Part shown: one piece after another, positions 14,443 through 30,748 of the stretch
Layout: each line of letters begins with the position of its first letter
Position numbering within the stretch: position 1 is the first letter of the stretch
Assembly: GCF_029266915.1 (NCBI RefSeq)
Contig: NZ_JARIEF010000120.1
Location: 1 to 64,000 of the forward strand
Direction: 5' to 3'
DNA from: Tissierella sp.
GTDB lineage: Bacteria; Bacillota; Clostridia; Tissierellales; Tissierellaceae
DNA length: 64,000 bases
The notes under the pieces: model-generated
What the model saw: only the letters and a program-made list of their open reading frames with translations
What the model was told of the DNA's origin: nothing
Database searches by the model: none
Translations under genes and position numbers: made by a program

Positions 14443-14736
14443 TTGAATATTGTTATTAACTCTGATGTACAAAGTTATCTTAGAAATATGGGCAGTAAAA
14501 ATATTACTATCTATCGTGAAATGATGAGCGGTTGCTGAGGCTGCCAGCATGAGATATTTGTAAATCTCAAGGAGCCAGTGGTTCCTACTGAATATAGAAA
14601 GCATGAAATAGAAGGCATAAATATTTATCTCTACAAAGATGCGGTGATCAAGAATGATCTAATAGAGATAAGCCTTGCAAAATCTGCATCTGATTTTGCA
14701 AATAAAGATTTTGATATAACTGGATTGGAAATATAG
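14443..14736 (+). CDS. Small selenoprotein with Cys-Sec-Gly-Cys motif (CC/Se-motif family)
   Basis: TTG start at 14443, 5 bases after AAGGTG. The frame runs 97 residues to TAG at 14734 with a single in-frame TGA at 14536-14538 (codon 32). Around it the protein reads EMMSGC-U-GCQHEI, a Cys/Sec/Cys cluster in a HesB/IscA-like small domain. Coding continues for 65 residues after the TGA with no other stop, and a hairpin follows the TGA immediately. I recall an NCBI family called CC/Se motif (seleno)protein with this layout. Redox or metal binding is likely; the actual role is unknown. Ordinary gene callers truncate or miss it. Co-transcribed with the MATE gene. Confidence 0.82.
14536..14576 (+). 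promoter_or_regulatory. Putative bacterial SECIS element of the small selenoprotein
   Basis: Directly after the TGA, GGCT (14539-14542) can pair with AGCC (14573-14576), and inside it GAGAT pairs with ATCTC around an AT/G-rich loop. Position and size fit a SelB-binding hairpin. Folding was judged by eye. Confidence 0.6.
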
Positions 14737-14911: not shown

Positions 14912-16750
14912 TTATTCCTTCTCTCTAACATAGATTCCTTGGAAATCTAGATAGTATTCTTTTTTATTTTTATTTTGATCATTGATATTTATATTAGAAA
15001 ATACAAGAAGGATGGCAATATTTTCATCTTCTAAAACCTTACTCATATCTTCAAATGGAAGTTCAATCTGCTCTCTTTCTTCTAAAGGATATTTTAATAA
15101 GAGCTCTTCTATATATTGGCTTAGATTTTCTTCTATTATCTCCTCGCCATTAAGCTTTACTAAGACTGTTGGAAGACCTGTTGATTCATTTGTAATGTTT
15201 ATTTCATAGCTTCCAGCTTTTCCTTCAAACTTGTCTGCGGTATCATTTTGCTCATTAGGCCTTATATTCAAGCTCAAATTATATCCACTTATATCTATTG
15301 GACCTTCTTTAAGATTAAGATTAGTTGAAAAATACTCTCCTTCATTACCATCATACACTCCATAAGTTTTTTCAAAACCAAATGTATCTCTGAAGACTTC
15401 CTCATCATTTAAATTTCCTTTAAACCAAGCCGGAGTGTTTTTCTTTTGGGAGGACCATATAAAATCTACAGAATTTGTAATCTCTCCTCTTTTCTTATAC
15501 TCAATCTCTCCATCTTTAGCTTGTATCTTATTATCTACTAGTAGACCTTGATCGTTTAGTATATCCTCCAGTCTGTTTACCTGAGAATTAAAAGTTATAT
15601 CCCTATAGCCAACAATTGGAAGTACATATATTGCAGCTAGAACCATTGCTGCTATTGCTATTTTCCTGTAGGATTTATCCTTTAATACTATCAAGAGCAA
15701 GACGGAGATCATTGCAAATATCCAAATCATAAGGAAAGAATACTCGGCAGTTTTTAAACCAAATTTATTGATCTGCTCAAACAAGGCCCAAGCTTCAAAT
15801 ATCAAAATTAATATTCCCGCAAATGGATATGCTCTTTTATAAAACTCTGCTAATTTACTATGATGATTTGCTACCATTATATGAATCCATATACCTATAA
15901 TTACATAGGATGATGCTATGCCTGATAGTTGATTAAAAGAAACATCCACTCCTTTTAAGACCACTCTTAGCGACCATATCAAAAGAACTACTGTCAGAGC
16001 CATCAATATAGGTACTAGGATATATTCAAAAAGTACATATATAAATCTAGGTTGTTCTTCTATTCTTTCAACTTCTTCTTTATTTTCTATGGGTTTGAAA
16101 CTTGGAAAATATCCTAAAAATATAGTGTAAGTCAAAAATCCAACTATTACTCCTATATATTCATAGATACTAGGATTTAAAGCTCTATATACCAAGGCCT
16201 GGAATGCCCCTACTACTCCAGATGTTCCTATCATTATTACAAATCCATAGATAGCTGAAATTATAAAAGCTCTATGAGTGATAAAAAATGCATCACTAAA
16301 ACTATCCACCCATTTAGCTTTTGAAACTATATATATAAATGCTACTATAGATATAAACACTCCGGAGCTCACCCTTGCCATTGCAATATCTGATACCTGG
16401 GACACTCCATCTATCCCAACTATTCTGCCGTAAAAATATACAAGTAGGAAAGTTATTATAGCTACGACAAGGCCAGATATATTGGCTATTAAAAATGATG
16501 ACTTTTGCTTGCTATATCTAACCTCTGCTAGGGCTACAGCCGCCATAGAAAATACGGCACCTAGTAGGAAGGATATTTGTAGGCTATTAAGCAATAAACT
16601 ATAGGAATCTACTGCTTCCCACCCCACTCTTATCCTTACTATTGCAGTTATACTTATAATAATAGCACTTAAAATAGCTGCTGGAAATCTAGAAAAGGAT
16701 CGCCCAGCCCCTTTAAATATTTTTTCTATTGTAAATCGTAAATTATCCAT
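14912..16750 (-). CDS. DUF4153 polytopic membrane protein
   Basis: About 612 residues. Roughly the first 400 are hydrophobic, with 11-13 predicted membrane segments; residues beyond about 420 form a soluble, probably extracytoplasmic domain (YRDITFNSQVNRLEDILNDQ, GNEGEYFSTNLNLKEG). The arrangement and the SAKWVDSFSDAFFITHRAF block fit the DUF4153 family, which has no assigned function. The start is the ATG at 16750 (MDNLRFTIEKIF) behind GAGGAGTTGAAATT; the frame is open upstream to 16825 but without such a site. Single gene. Confidence 0.8.
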   Translation of the reverse strand: MDNLRFTIEKIFKGAGRSFSRFPAAILSAIIISITAIVRIRVGWEAVDSYSLLLNSLQISFLLGAVFSMAAVALAEVRYSKQKSSFLIANISGLVVAIITFLLVYFYGRIVGIDGVSQVSDIAMARVSSGVFISIVAFIYIVSKAKWVDSFSDAFFITHRAFIISAIYGFVIMIGTSGVVGAFQALVYRALNPSIYEYIGVIVGFLTYTIFLGYFPSFKPIENKEEVERIEEQPRFIYVLFEYILVPILMALTVVLLIWSLRVVLKGVDVSFNQLSGIASSYVIIGIWIHIMVANHHSKLAEFYKRAYPFAGILILIFEAWALFEQINKFGLKTAEYSFLMIWIFAMISVLLLIVLKDKSYRKIAIAAMVLAAIYVLPIVGYRDITFNSQVNRLEDILNDQGLLVDNKIQAKDGEIEYKKRGEITNSVDFIWSSQKKNTPAWFKGNLNDEEVFRDTFGFEKTYGVYDGNEGEYFSTNLNLKEGPIDISGYNLSLNIRPNEQNDTADKFEGKAGSYEINITNESTGLPTVLVKLNGEEIIEENLSQYIEELLLKYPLEEREQIELPFEDMSKVLEDENIAILLVFSNININDQNKNKKEYYLDFQGIYVREKE

Positions 16751-16991
16751 AATTTCAACTCCTCTCATTATGCAGTTAAGTTCCTTATAGATATTATACC
16801 CCCATATAGGATAATATCTTCCCAAGCTATAATATTTAAAAATATATTTATAGTTTAGCTAATATCCCTAATATGTCATAGTAAATAAACTAGAAGTATA
16901 GATAGATTAATGATAAAATAGAACTATAAAGACTAAATGATAATAAATTTTATATTATGAATAATTATCTCGAGATTGAAAGGAGAGTATT

Positions 16992-17741
16992 ATGGATAAG
17001 AAAGATATTAGAAAATCTATCAATGACTTTTACGATGAGGTAGCTGGAGAAGAAGTAAAGGTTAAAGGTGATATAGATAAGTTAAATAAATCTCTTGGCT
17101 ATTCCAAGGAAGACTTAGAGAATATACCAGAAGAAGCCCAGTTAGGTCTTGGATGTGGTAATCCTCAAGAACAAGGACAACCGAGCCCTGGAGAAGTTGT
17201 AGCAGATCTAGGTTCAGGACGAGGAATGGACTCATTTTTAGCTTCAAAAGCTGTCGGAGAATCAGGCCGAGTTATAGGAATTGATAATAATTATAAGATG
17301 CTTGAAAAAGCTAGAGAAATAGCTCATAAGAAGAATTTTACCAATACCGAGTTTAGACTAGGCGAGATAGAATATATACCTATTGCTGACAATCAGTTAG
17401 ATTTATTGATGTCAAACTGTGTAATCAACCTGTCTACAGATAAGTCACAAGTTTATAGAGAGATATACAGAAGCTTAAAACCTGGTGGAAGAATAAGTAT
17501 TTCAGATATAGTATTAAAAGAAGAACTTCCAGAGGAAATAAAGGCAGATCCAAATGTTCACGGAACTTGAGTCGGCGGTGCGATCTCTCTTGAAGAGATA
17601 AAGACAATGCTTGAGTCCACTGGATTTAAAGATATAACCATAGTAATGGATCCAGTAACTGATGAATATGCAAGAAAATGGGGCTATGGCCTTGAGATAA
17701 AAAGATTTATTGCCAGCGCAGCAATTTTAGCTTATAAATAA
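16992..17741 (+). CDS. arsM: Arsenite S-adenosylmethionine methyltransferase, selenocysteine form
   Basis: 249 residues when the in-frame TGA at 17568-17570 is read as Sec193. The SAM-binding motif VADLGSGRGMDS (near 74), LGLGCGNP with the first conserved Cys, SNCVINLS with the second, and LKPGGRISISDIV are those of ArsM. The next conserved Cys, normally CVxGA, is here U-VGGA; the frame continues 56 residues to TAA with the expected EYARKWGYG tail. ArsM methylates As(III) to volatile or less toxic species using three cysteines to hold arsenic. ATG preceded by AAAGGAGAGTATT. No arsR/arsB neighbours. Reading the TGA as a stop would remove the arsenic-binding end of the enzyme. Confidence 0.88.
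17568..17605 (+). promoter_or_regulatory. Putative SECIS hairpin in arsM
   Basis: ATCTCT (17583-17588) pairs perfectly with AGAGAT (17594-17599) around a 5-base loop, 12 bases after the TGA. This is the distance expected for a bacterial SECIS. Judged by eye. Confidence 0.6.
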
Positions 17742-17742
17742 T

Positions 17743-17777
17743 AAAACCTTGGAATTATTCATAATTCCAAGGTTTTT
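17743..17777. terminator. Terminator between arsM and the TPR gene
   Basis: AAAACCTTGGAATTAT and its near-perfect complement around a 2-base centre, followed by T on the plus strand and, read the other way, also by T; bidirectional. Confidence 0.9.
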
Positions 17778-17897
17778 CTAGTTTTACTTGCATTTTTTAA
17801 TAATTTTATTTTTGTTTTTCTACTGGTTTATTTATATTTACTTGCCAGTTTTCTTCTAACTTTATTTTAGCAGATTGGTTCTCCATCTTCATGCTAA

Positions 17898-23719: not shown

Positions 23720-23785
23720 TTTAGACATAAAAACACTCCCCTTTAATATCAGATTTCTTATCTAATATCCAAGAGGAGTATTGAT
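23720..23785 (-). terminator. Probable terminator of the metal operon
   Basis: An imperfect long hairpin, ACTCCTCTTGGATATTAGAT against ATCTGATATTAAAGGGGAGT with TTTTTAT after it on the minus strand, about 25 bases past the stop codon of the HMA gene. Confidence 0.6.
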
Positions 23786-23809
23786 GCTCTAGCTTTTACT
23801 TTATTTTAT

Positions 23810-24037
23810 TTATCTTGCTTTGGCACTCTCAACTTCATAGCCTACTTTAGTTATAGCCGCTTCTATCTCTTCTAATGAAGTTTTTTCTTCATCAAAATCT
23901 AATTTTACCTTGCTTGAATTAAATAGTACCTTGATTGTATCATCTTCAACACCTTCTAATTTTTTTACTGCACCTTCCACCTTTAGTGTACAAGATGGGC
24001 ATGTTAGAGTTTCAAGTTGAATTGTAGCTTTTTTCAT
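23810..24037 (-). CDS. Heavy-metal-associated (HMA) domain protein
   Basis: 75 residues forming one ferredoxin-like HMA domain: LETLTCPSCTLKVEGAV with the metal-binding Cys13 and Cys16, then VEDDTIKVLFNSSKVKLDFD and ITKVGYEVESA. Usually such proteins shuttle Cu+, Zn2+ or related ions to or from a P1B ATPase. The partner ATPase gene lies 100 bases upstream and lacks its own N-terminal HMA domain, so this free-standing protein could supply that function. SD AGGAGAATAATT before the ATG. Confidence 0.92.
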   Translation of the reverse strand: MKKATIQLETLTCPSCTLKVEGAVKKLEGVEDDTIKVLFNSSKVKLDFDEEKTSLEEIEAAITKVGYEVESAKAR

Positions 24038-24138
24038 AATTATTCTCCTCTCTTTTATTTTTAATTTTCATATTTTTTATATGTTTTTATTGTTTATATC
24101 TCAATGTTATATTTTTTATATTGTTTATATTTTCTATC

Positions 24139-25989
24139 TTACTTTAGCCTGTATCTCAATAGTCTCATACCATTGAGTATAACAACTAATATGCTTCCTT
24201 CATGAACTAGCATCCCTATAGACATATTCATCCACTGGCTAAAGAATACGGCTGCAAGAAGTATAAATACAACCCCTACTGCTATAACAATATTCTGAAC
24301 CATGTTTCTTGCTGTAGCCTTTGTAAGTCCTAAAGCGTGTGGTAATCTATTAAAATCTGAATTCATAAGAACAATATCAGATGTTTCAATAGCAACGTCT
24401 GTACCGCTACCCATTGCAATACCAACATCTGCAAGAGCAAGGGATGGACTGTCATTTATTCCGTCTCCTACAAAGGCAACTATTCTACCCTCTTCCTTAA
24501 TAGTTTTAACATATTCTGCCTTGTCTTCAGGCAACATATTACCGTGGGCCTCTGTAAGTCCAAGTTCACCACTTACAACATCTACTGTTCCCTGATTATC
24601 TCCAGATAGCATAATCAAGTTCTTTACGCCTAGGGCTCTTAACTGCTGGAGATTCTCTTTAACATTGGGTCTGATCTGATCACGAATACCCATAATTACT
24701 TCGATTTTCCCGTTTATAGCAGTTATGACCAATGAATTGCCTTGTTTTTGTAATCTATCTATATCAGACCTTAGTTCTCCTTCAATCTTTATATCTTCCA
24801 GGTCCATAAGTGCCTCGTTGCCTACAGCTACTTTATACCCCTTAATATTAGCTGTAACACCTTTTCCTTTAATTACCTGTGTATTTTCAACTGGAGAAAA
24901 AGTTGTCTCTCCTATCTCAGCTAAAACTGCCTTGGCTAGCGGATGGTCTGATTCTCTCTCTATACTTGCTAGATAACCCAGTGCTTCTTGAGTATTTTCG
25001 CTATAATATTTTGTTTCTGAAACTGACGGATTACCTAGAGTAAGGGTACCTGTTTTATCAAATATAATTGTATCTACTCTTGAAAAATCATGAATAACTT
25101 CACTACCCTTTAAGAGTATTCCATGACTTGCACCATTACCTATACCTGAAACATTTGATACTGGTACTCCTATTACTAAGGCTCCAGGACAACCCAGAAC
25201 TAAGATTGTTATAGCAAGCTCAATATCTCTTGAGAATAGCCATACTATAAATGAAAGAACTAAAACAGCTGGTGTATAGTATTTGGAAAATCTATCTATA
25301 AATCTTTCAGCTTCTGATTTTGAGTCTTGTGCTTCTTCTACAAGCTCTATAATTCTTCCAAAAGTAGTGTCTTCTCCAACTCTATCTGCAATAATTTGAA
25401 TTGTTCCATTTTCAAGTATTGTGCCAGCAAATACTTTTGAACCAGCCTCTTTATCTTGAGGAATAGACTCTCCTGTGATACTCGCTTCATTTATATAACC
25501 TTCACCGCTTAATACTCTTCCGTCTACAGGTATTTTTGCACCTGTTTTTACAAGTAATATATCTTCTACATCTATATCGTCAACTTCTACCTCTTCAAAC
25601 TCTCCGTTTTCCATTTGCTTGAGTGCGCTTTCAGGTGCCATCTGGGTTAATTCCTTAATAGCTGACCTGGTTTTATTTAGTGTACGCATCTCGAGGTAAG
25701 CACCAAAGAGAAATAGAAATGTAACAATAGCTGATTCTTCATAGTTCTTAATTATAAATGCACCTACAACTGCTATGGTTACTAAAACATCAATACTAAC
25801 TACCTTTACTCTTAAAGCCTGATATGCCTGAAGAGCAATTGGAGCTAGTCCTAATATAGAAGCTATTATCAAGGCCCATTCTGAAATCCTTATATCGGAT
25901 CCCCACCAATGATTTCCAAAAGCAATAGCTATTAGGATTCCACTTGCCACCATAATCTGATTTTTTTTACCTAAAATATATCGTTGCAT
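24139..25989 (-). CDS. Heavy-metal P1B-type ATPase (CPG motif)
   Basis: 616 residues with eight membrane segments. The actuator motif TGES is at 172-175, phosphorylation DKTGTLT has Asp311, the HP motif is ESDHPLA and the hinge is GDGIND. The metal-site motif in helix 6 is CPG (267-269) instead of the CPC of Cu pumps, and the last helix carries HEGSILVVILNGMRL. This combination points away from Cu+ export and towards a divalent ion (Zn, Co, Fe or Mn), but specificity is open. No N-terminal HMA domain; a separate HMA gene follows. The gene for a small helical protein precedes it by 40 bases. Confidence 0.92.
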   Translation of the reverse strand: MQRYILGKKNQIMVASGILIAIAFGNHWWGSDIRISEWALIIASILGLAPIALQAYQALRVKVVSIDVLVTIAVVGAFIIKNYEESAIVTFLFLFGAYLEMRTLNKTRSAIKELTQMAPESALKQMENGEFEEVEVDDIDVEDILLVKTGAKIPVDGRVLSGEGYINEASITGESIPQDKEAGSKVFAGTILENGTIQIIADRVGEDTTFGRIIELVEEAQDSKSEAERFIDRFSKYYTPAVLVLSFIVWLFSRDIELAITILVLGCPGALVIGVPVSNVSGIGNGASHGILLKGSEVIHDFSRVDTIIFDKTGTLTLGNPSVSETKYYSENTQEALGYLASIERESDHPLAKAVLAEIGETTFSPVENTQVIKGKGVTANIKGYKVAVGNEALMDLEDIKIEGELRSDIDRLQKQGNSLVITAINGKIEVIMGIRDQIRPNVKENLQQLRALGVKNLIMLSGDNQGTVDVVSGELGLTEAHGNMLPEDKAEYVKTIKEEGRIVAFVGDGINDSPSLALADVGIAMGSGTDVAIETSDIVLMNSDFNRLPHALGLTKATARNMVQNIVIAVGVVFILLAAVFFSQWMNMSIGMLVHEGSILVVILNGMRLLRYRLK

Positions 25990-26029
25990 AATATTTCACC
26001 GCCCTTATTTGCTAAATTCTCTTTATATC

Positions 26030-26323
26030 TTACTCAGTATACGCTTGGTCCATTTCCGACAGCATATTGTATACTGCTTCATAAGTTTCACATGTATCTT
26101 CGGGAACCCTATAGTTATCTGTAATCCTTCTAAGTTCTTGGAACTCACCATCTAATTCGGGTCTTTGAGAACCTGCTTGATTTATTTTTTCTATCATTTT
26201 ATCATATTCTTTAACTACATTATGAAACTCCGGATGACTCTCACCATGAACACGAGCTACAACTGGAACATATAATTCTAACCTCTCAAGATATACCTCA
26301 TCAAATCCTTCAAACTTTGTCAT
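26030..26323 (-). CDS. Small helical protein, possibly hemerythrin-like
   Basis: 97 residues, MTKFEGFDEVYLERLELYV, then VARVHGESHPEFHNVVKEYDKM, rich in helix formers, His and Glu. The HGESHPEF segment recalls ligand-bearing helices of small hemerythrin-like proteins, but only a few His are present and I do not claim the family. It is the first gene of the operon with the P1B ATPase and HMA protein, downstream of a palindrome-bearing promoter region. A role in metal storage or sensing is inference. SD GGAGAGAGATTAAT. Confidence 0.65.
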   Translation of the reverse strand: MTKFEGFDEVYLERLELYVPVVARVHGESHPEFHNVVKEYDKMIEKINQAGSQRPELDGEFQELRRITDNYRVPEDTCETYEAVYNMLSEMDQAYTE

Positions 26324-26370
26324 ATTAATCTCTCTCCTTTTAATCTCTATTTTTATCTTATAACTTATTT

Positions 26371-26430
26371 TAACATGTAACTCTATAAAAAGAATTGACC
26401 TGGGTCAAAATTTCAATTTTAAATATAAAT
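26371..26430. repeat. Duplicated regulatory segment, copy 1
   Basis: About 60 bases that match 26520-26579 at roughly three quarters of positions without gaps (offset 149). Each copy starts TAACAT and is centred on a TTGA(C/T)-N4-GTCAA palindrome. Confidence 0.7.
26395..26408. promoter_or_regulatory. FNR/CRP-like palindrome 1 upstream of metal operon
   Basis: TTGAC-CTGG-GTCAA, a perfect palindrome of the TTGAN-N4-NTCAA type bound by CRP/FNR-family dimers. It is 72-85 bases ahead of the 26323 start codon. On the minus strand its TTGACC half could itself be a -35 element. Confidence 0.65.
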
Positions 26431-26519
26431 CTATAATTTTGTTCTTAATTAATATAAAATCTAATTTTTATAGTTGTAATTTATCTGACTGAAGGTATTT
26501 CTTACCTTATAGATTATCC

Positions 26520-26579
26520 TAACATACAATTTTAAGAAAATAATTGATCCTAGTCAAAGTTTTAATATTAACTATAAAA
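26520..26579. repeat. Duplicated regulatory segment, copy 2
   Basis: Second copy of the 60-base segment, nearer the divergent MATE gene. It ends close to a TATAAT-rich stretch near 26605 that could be the MATE promoter. Confidence 0.65.
26544..26557. promoter_or_regulatory. FNR/CRP-like palindrome 2 upstream of MATE gene
   Basis: TTGAT-CCTA-GTCAA, the same operator type as at 26395 with one arm changed by a C to T substitution. Confidence 0.6.
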
Positions 26580-26736
26580 TAAAACATAATAATTTTATTT
26601 CTGTTATAATATACTAAGAATATACATAAATATGTACATGCATAAGTTGAATTATCTTATTTCTATAGCAATTCTATTTAAATATTGCTAGGAAAATATT
26701 ATTTAATCATAATTATATGAAATTTGGAGGCAAAAT

Positions 26737-28116
26737 ATGGAAAGTCTTAGAACAAAGTTTTCACCAAAAGATCTTACAGAAGGAACACCCTGGAAAAGAA
26801 TTGTAGAATTTGCCGTTCCCATGTTAATCGGAAATGTAGCCCAGCAATTATATAATACAGCTGACTCAATTATTGTCGGAAGGTATATAGGAGATAATGC
26901 TCTAGCAGCAGTTGGAAGCGCTTCTCCTATACTCAATCTTCTGCTAGTTTTATTTGTAGGTATCTCTGTTGGAGCCAGCATAATGGTCTCTCAATACTTT
27001 GGTGCCAAAGATAGAGAAAACCTTTCTCGGACAATTGGAACCTGTATATCCTTAACCGCCATAGCATCGGTGCTTATTATGATAATAGGACCGCTTCTTG
27101 CAAGGCCACTTCTTTCTCTACTTAATACACCAGAATCTATTATAGATTGGTCTTCTAGCTATTTAAATATATTTTTTATAGGAAGCGCCGGTTTTGCCTA
27201 CTTTAATATCCTATCTGGAATTTTAAGGGGGCTTGGAGATTCAGTTTCAGCACTTGTATTTTTGCTAATCTCAACTGCTTTAAATGTAGTACTAGATATA
27301 ATCTTTGTTGCAAAGTTTAATATGGGTGTTCCCGGAGTTGCACTTGCAACTATAATAGCTCAAAGTTTCTCAGCAGTTCTTACCCTTAGAAAGCTGATAA
27401 AAAATAAAACTAGTTTTGATTTGAACTTTAAAATGCTAAAACTTAATAAAGAGTATTCTTATAAACTGATGAAGCTTGGACTTCCATCAGGGTTAACCCA
27501 GGCTATATTCTCTCTTGCAATGATAATAGTTCAGTCTTTAACTAACAGTTTTGGAGAAATGGTAATAGCTGCAAATGTTATAATTATGAGGGTAGATGGA
27601 TTTGCTATGATGCCGAATTTTTCTTTCGGCGCGGCTTTAACAACCTTTACTGGTCAAAATATCGGAGCTAAAAAAATGGAAAGAGTAGAAAAAGGTATAA
27701 AACAAGGAACCCTAATAGCTTTAGGAGTTTCTACCATACTTACTATTTTACTTTTAATTTTTGGTAAATATTTGATGGCTGTTTTTACTGATACAAGCGA
27801 GCTAGTTGATTTAAGTATGCATTTGATGAGAATCCTTGCCTTTGGATATATTGCAATGGCTGTAACTCAAAGTCTATCAGGTGTTATGAGAGGAGCGGGA
27901 GATACCTTAACTCCTATGTGGATTTCGCTTATAACTACTGTTATTGTAAGAGTTCCTATAGCCTATGGAATAGCTTTTTTTACTAGAAGTGAAGCCTATC
28001 CAACTGGAAGACCAGAGTCAGTTTTTATCTCCCTTTTAATGTCATGGACGATTGGAGCTATTGTAACTATTATATTCTTTAGACGAGGTACTTGGAGGAA
28101 AAAAACTATAGTTTAG
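26737..28116 (+). CDS. MATE family efflux transporter (third of three)
   Basis: 459 residues, 12 membrane segments: RIVEFAVPMLIGNVAQQLYNTADSI at the start, SGILRGLGDSVSALVF near 160, MKLGLPSGLTQAIFSLAMI near 245 and GVMRGAGDTLTPMW near 385. ATG with TTGGAGGCAAAAT ahead. It is divergent from the metal operon and shares the duplicated regulatory region with it, so co-regulation is possible. The substrate cannot be read from the sequence. Confidence 0.92.
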   Translation: MESLRTKFSPKDLTEGTPWKRIVEFAVPMLIGNVAQQLYNTADSIIVGRYIGDNALAAVGSASPILNLLLVLFVGISVGASIMVSQYFGAKDRENLSRTIGTCISLTAIASVLIMIIGPLLARPLLSLLNTPESIIDWSSSYLNIFFIGSAGFAYFNILSGILRGLGDSVSALVFLLISTALNVVLDIIFVAKFNMGVPGVALATIIAQSFSAVLTLRKLIKNKTSFDLNFKMLKLNKEYSYKLMKLGLPSGLTQAIFSLAMIIVQSLTNSFGEMVIAANVIIMRVDGFAMMPNFSFGAALTTFTGQNIGAKKMERVEKGIKQGTLIALGVSTILTILLLIFGKYLMAVFTDTSELVDLSMHLMRILAFGYIAMAVTQSLSGVMRGAGDTLTPMWISLITTVIVRVPIAYGIAFFTRSEAYPTGRPESVFISLLMSWTIGAIVTIIFFRRGTWRKKTIV

Positions 28117-28130
28117 TATTTCTACAGAGT

Positions 28131-28990: not shown

Positions 28991-29017
28991 TTGATTATAT
29001 TAGTATATTCCTATACT

Positions 29018-30748
29018 TTATAGCAGCCAAGGATCATCCTCTGGTTCTATAAAGTCTCCTATATTTGTTTCTATTTCTACTCCAGAATCAACTGGCTCTG
29101 TAGGCACATTTAAATCTGGATGCATATTGTTAGCCTTCTTTAAGTTTTCATGAGAATCTTTTTTAGGAAGATCTAAATCAACATCTTCAATTGATATATT
29201 CATAGCTTTAGCAACACCTTTTCCGTACTCAGGATCTGCCTGATAGCAGTTATATATATGTCTATGCTTTATCTGAAGAGTTGAGTCACCCATGTTTCTT
29301 GCAGTATTATCAAATAAAACTTGTTTTTGCTCATCTGTCATAGCATTAAACAGAAGTCCTGGTTGAGTATAGTAGTCAGAGTCGTCTTGTCTAAAGTCAT
29401 ATCTATAAACGTCTCCACCTTTTTCTGATGGTAGATTGTCCTCTGGACTATCTTTCCAGTTACCATAACTATTAGGCTCATAATGAAGCTCACTTCCTAG
29501 ATTTCCGTCCACTCTCATTTGCCCATCTCTGTGGAAGCTATGAGGATTTTCAACGCCCTTAGGAGAGTTAACAGGTATTTGATGATGATTTACACCAAGT
29601 CTATATCTTTGAGCATCTGAATAAGCAAATAGCCTTCCCTGAAGCATTCTGTCCGGAGAAAAACTTATTCCTGGAACTATATTTGAAGGACTAAAGGCAG
29701 CCTGTTCGATTTGTGCAAAATAGTTATCTGGGTTTCTATTTAATTCAAATTCTCCTACTGGAATAAGTGGATAATCTTCCTTAAGCCACATTTTAGTTAA
29801 GTCAAAAGGATTGTTCTCCATAGCATCGGCTTCCTCTTCAGTCATAACTTGAATATACATCTTCCATTTAGGATACATTTCTTGCTCTATAGCTTCGTAA
29901 AGATCTCTTTGATGAGACTCTCTATCCATAGCTACTACCTTACCTGCTTCTTGATCGGTTAAGTTTTTTATTCCCTGTTGGCTTCTAAAGTGGAATTTTA
30001 CCCATGTTCTTTTGTTTTCAGCACTAATGAAACTATAGGCATGAGAGCTAAATCCGTGCATATGTCTATAAGATGATGGAAGTCCTCTATCACCCATTAT
30101 AATAGTTACCTGCAAAAGTGCTTCCGGCAGCGAACTCCAAAAGTCCCAGTTTGTATTTGGGCTTCTCATATTAGTACGAGGATCTCTCTTAATAGCATGG
30201 TTTAAATCTATAAACTTCATTGGATCTCTAAAGAAAAATACTGGCGTGTTATTTCCAACTAAATCCCAGTTACCTTCTTCAGTATAAAATTTTAAAGCAA
30301 ATCCACGAATATCTCTTTCCGCATCTGCTGCTCCTCGCTCACCTGCAACGGTTGAAAATCTTGCTAGCATTTCTGTTTTTTTACCTATTTCTGAAAATAT
30401 TTTAGCATCAGTGTATTCTGTAATATCATGAGTTACAGTAAATGTACCAAATGCTCCCGATCCCTTTGCATGCATTCTACGCTCTGGTATAACTTCTCTG
30501 TTAAAATGAGCGTGCTTTTCCAATAACCAAACATCTTGCAGAGAAACAGGTCCTCTTTTTCCAGATGTCATTGAATCTTGATTGTCTGTTACTGGAGTTC
30601 CAGCAGCTGTTGTTATATTAGGATTGTCACCAACATTTTGATTACGACTGGGACTATGCTTGCCTAACTTGTTTTTATCCATCGGATTTTTATTATCCAT
30701 TTCATTTTTCTTCTTATTTTTTTCATTTAAATCTTTCTTATTATCCAT
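29018..30748 (-). CDS. Monofunctional haem catalase
   Basis: 576 residues. After a 60-residue polar, Asn/Lys-rich N-terminal extension comes the catalase core: [16 protein letters not shown] with distal His93, [27 protein letters not shown], and the proximal haem Tyr in [16 protein letters not shown]. The enzyme converts hydrogen peroxide to water and oxygen. There is no signal peptide. The C-terminal 70 residues are acidic. ATG behind AAGGAGGAAAAAA. The leader contains several TCAAGCT half-sites that may be regulatory. Small-subunit type without the large-subunit flavodoxin-like tail. Its presence suggests an aerotolerant anaerobe. Confidence 0.96.

Follow-up and report, generated by a model that had tools for sequence, protein, structure and literature searches.

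A predicted selenocysteine at an As(III)-ligand position of an ArsM-type arsenite methyltransferase from Tissierella sp.

Results

The window analyzed here, a stretch of 64,000 nucleotides from Tissierella sp. (contig NZ_JARIEF010000120.1), carries on its forward strand a gene, arsM, for a 249-aa protein with a putative selenocysteine at residue 193 (positions 16992 to 17741). The gene begins with an ATG at 16992, with a Shine-Dalgarno-like stretch, AAGGAGAG, immediately 5' in the window sequence. A single in-frame TGA lies at 17568 to 17570, corresponding to residue 193, and the frame is otherwise open; downstream of this codon, 56 codons encode an ArsM C-terminus, followed by a TAA at 17739 to 17741. 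With a cysteine substituted for the selenocysteine, the protein reaches 266.6 bits with the arsenite methyltransferase model NF008823/PRK11873, above the curated cut-off of 263 bits and along nearly the whole profile (positions 3 to 266 of 272). Pfam methyltransferase domains are also matched when the TGA is read as a residue, and a TGA stands at the same codon in the best homologue from Tissierella creatinophila (79% identity), whose strain DSM 6911 is the nearest named relative. Under the standard code (table 11) the TGA is a stop, and annotation with that code would cut the product at residue 192. A preliminary description of this DNA, which had placed a TGA at 17568 in an ArsM frame, 56 further open codons with the expected C-terminus and a 6-bp hairpin 12 bases past the TGA, was accurate in all of these coordinates.

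The stop codon of arsM is followed on the same strand by a probable terminator, read from the sequence as the hairpin AACCTTGGAATTATTCATAATTCCAAGGTT and a run of T residues (17745 to 17780). The scanned neighbors encode MATE transporters, a TPR protein, a TetR regulator, a CopZ-like protein and a heavy-metal P-type ATPase, and no ars operon gene was recognized among them. As a probable terminator follows the stop codon and no ars gene was recognized among the scanned neighbors, arsM seems to be expressed alone. The CopZ-like heavy-metal-binding protein adjoins the heavy-metal P-type ATPase on the minus strand, 6 to 8 kb from arsM (23810 to 25989). Divergent to arsM is a minus-strand gene (14912 to 16825) for a 637-aa protein without a Pfam or NCBIfam match, whose numerous hydrophobic segments point to a membrane protein.

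A second gene with an in-frame UGA had been proposed 2.5 kb away, and it is real: positions 14443 to 14736 of the forward strand encode a 97-aa member of the CC/Se motif family of (seleno)proteins, scoring 58.6 bits against NF041239 (cut-off, 40). This gene has a TTG start preceded by GAAGGTGAT, and its TGA (14536 to 14538) would encode Sec residue 32 within the motif SGCUGC. Standard-code annotation would miss or truncate it.

The genes for selenocysteine decoding were sought in the window's genome (2.15 Mb in 122 contigs, 88.9% complete, 6.8% contamination), with family searches for selA, selB and selD. All four genes that the preliminary description had named for checking are present, so that SelA, SelB, SelD and tRNA-Sec are encoded, as in a bacterium that makes selenoproteins. 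They lie on one strand of one contig (C99:23761-29105) in the order selD (23761-24687; 401 bits), selA (24825-26195; 621 bits), selB (26238-28130; 359 bits) and the tRNA-Sec gene selC (29013-29105; 73.3 bits against a gathering score of 47), in what looks like an ordinary sel cluster. The selD gene itself has one in-frame TGA, and SelD of this genome is probably a selenoprotein, as is common for this protein. Because the sel genes and the window are on different contigs of a fragmented, partly contaminated assembly, tRNA-Sec was also sought in other ArsM-bearing genomes; it was found in all 15 tested, the window's own included. One of the same genus (99% complete, 1% contamination) has both tRNA-Sec and an ArsM that is 79% identical and carries the same TGA, which answers most of the objection from contamination and separate contigs.

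For comparison across species, we assembled 41 homologues, comprising the window's ArsM, its relatives and matches in 391 genomes drawn from the class. At the column of residue 193, TGA occurs in 21 and TGT or TGC in the other 20, with no other residue in any; exchange of an in-frame TGA with cysteine in homologues is a mark of bacterial selenoproteins. The TGA is thus shared with 20 other homologues, from many genera and down to about 41% identity, each with an open frame downstream, and the C-terminal 56 codons are conserved among relatives in the alignment. Since the same codon is TGA in those 20 sequences, its presence at codon 193 is not due to chance. The possibility, raised at the outset, that relatives would mark the TGA as a null mutation found no sign in these data; the exchange between TGA and cysteine occurs at this single codon. 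In a maximum-likelihood tree a single branch (support, 100/97) separates all Sec forms from the Cys forms; the tree is rooted at its midpoint and sets no direction for the change between cysteine and selenocysteine.

The suggestion that the TGA replaces a conserved cysteine is borne out by the structurally characterized CmArsM (PDB 4kw7 and 4fr0), against which ligand positions were counted along the alignment. Cys72, Cys174 and Cys224 of CmArsM are conserved arsenite-binding residues (PMC5552862). They align, respectively, with Cys55 (codon at 17154 to 17156), Cys143 (17418 to 17420) and the putative Sec193 (17568 to 17570), so that all three As(III)-binding positions are kept, the third as selenocysteine rather than cysteine. 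The other two ligand cysteines are invariant in 41 of 41 homologues, Cys143 by construction, as the NC[VI]xN motif that contains it was used to fix the frame. Among N-terminal cysteines, the Tissierella protein has no equivalent of CmArsM Cys44, and its clade lacks both this residue and the CC pair seen in many Cys-type relatives.

The SECIS-like hairpin, ATCTCT-CTTGA-AGAGAT (17583 to 17599, forward strand), starts 12 bases after the TGA, and a hairpin shortly 3' of the TGA is expected of a bacterial selenoprotein gene. An Rfam scan of the window matched no family. Taken alone, the window's hairpin does not differ significantly from what synonymously recoded sequences give (P = 0.13), with values for single Sec sequences ranging from 0.002 to 0.34; we therefore used a comparative test. 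All Sec forms have a stem-loop whose apical loop lies some 18 to 28 bases past the TGA; in the Cys forms the stem is weaker (median score, 14 for Sec versus 8 for Cys forms; Mann-Whitney P = 2.4e-8, an optimistic value as the sequences are related). In a set consisting of the window's sequence and seven Sec relatives, picked for a shared stem register, the helix is paired in 95.9% of cells compared to 41 to 55% for slid controls, four of seven pairs have changes on both sides, and none of 500 shuffles reached the observed covariation score. Pairing above the slid controls, changes on both sides and the outcome of the shuffles indicate that compensatory change has kept the stem intact, as would be expected for a bacterial SECIS element.

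Discussion

Our results suggest that arsM of this Tissierella strain is, almost certainly, a true selenoprotein gene, predicted to encode an ArsM-type, S-adenosylmethionine (SAM)-dependent arsenite methyltransferase in which UGA193 is decoded as selenocysteine. SelB and tRNA-Sec would decode the UGA, steered by the hairpin just 3' of it. Homology to CmArsM suggests that As(III) would be held by Cys55, Cys143 and Sec193, that is, by two thiolates and one selenolate that stands in for the third thiolate ligand, and that the arsenic so bound would receive its methyl groups from SAM. The decoding half of this mechanism is strongly supported by sequence comparison; the frame, the homology, the position of the TGA, its exchange with cysteine, the decoding genes and the conservation of the hairpin are direct observations. 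By analogy with CmArsM, we infer that As(III) would be bound through the selenolate and methylated with SAM, while the insertion of selenocysteine itself, and any advantage that it may bring, such as the changed As(III) affinity and methylation kinetics proposed in the preliminary description, are predictions from sequence.

It could be argued that the TGA simply terminates translation or is a null mutation, leaving arsM as a truncated gene of 192 codons or a pseudogene, since the standard code reads it as a stop and the evidence is at the level of sequence. However, the same TGA with an open frame beyond it in 20 other homologues, some of only about 41% identity, the conservation of the 56 C-terminal codons, the presence of the decoding genes and the covariation of the hairpin leave this reading with a negligible probability; indeed, with the TGA and the frame beyond it conserved in many genera, a pseudogene or null mutation can for practical purposes be dismissed. 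Mere read-through of the UGA would also yield an open frame, and the codon might then be read as another amino acid, whether as tryptophan through a general change of code or through near-cognate decoding. This is very improbable, if slightly less so than a stop, as the column alternates with cysteine only and the selenocysteine machinery is complete. The remaining genes of the window have normal ends when read with table 11, and in-frame TGA codons are not a general pattern among them; a general reassignment of UGA is thereby ruled out.

A different question is whether a real selenoprotein of the ArsM fold acts on As(III) or on another physiological substrate, such as a different metalloid or an organic thiol. 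The lack of recognized ars operon genes among the scanned neighbors, the apparently monocistronic arrangement of arsM and the loss from its clade of the Cys44 equivalent and the CC pair all speak for another substrate. Against this, the three As(III)-ligand positions are kept as Cys/Cys/Sec and the score exceeds the cut-off of the arsenite methyltransferase model, and we consider a substrate other than As(III) unlikely. We are equally doubtful that the Sec-ArsM lineage has a distinct biochemical role enabled by the selenolate ligand, such as methylating arsenic anaerobically in the absence of the N-terminal cysteines or acting on a different metalloid. Whatever its role, the predicted selenoprotein and its Cys-type relatives form a clear-cut Sec/Cys pair, provided by nature, at a position that binds a metalloid, and this pair could help to test what selenium contributes to arsenic chemistry.

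Selenocysteine-containing arsenite methyltransferases are already included among the prokaryotic selenoproteins in reviews of 2022 (PMC9312934) and 2026 (PMC13188914). Table 1 of the latter gives the family as NF008823 with a UxxG motif, one Sec and WP_011987699.1 as the representative, citing Fomenko et al. 2007, under the heading "Experimentally verified." Since the Sec-type ArsM is thus a catalogued bacterial selenoprotein family, a point that the preliminary description had overlooked, the Tissierella ArsM is a well-supported member of a known family rather than an enzyme of a new kind, and it adds no family to those already listed for selenoproteins. It shares with the listed protein the family model, the single Sec and the UxxG motif (UVGG here); it comes from a different organism, and nothing else that was compared differs. 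The same review also lists the UxxG motif for multi-Sec ArsM fusions. The ArsM-like parts of the NCBIfam models for ArsM/DUF2284 (NF041536), ArsM/AhpD (NF041537) and methyltransferase/UXPK-star (NF047649) fusions match the Tissierella protein at 139.6 to 155.5 bits, far under their cut-offs of 460 to 575; unlike these fusions, it has one Sec and no fused second domain, ending after the ArsM region. With CmArsM of Cyanidioschyzon (PDB 4fr0, 4kw7 and 5eg5) it has in common the methyltransferase core and the three As(III)-ligand positions, whereas its C-terminal part is shorter, the Cys44 equivalent is absent and the place of Cys224 is taken by the predicted selenocysteine.
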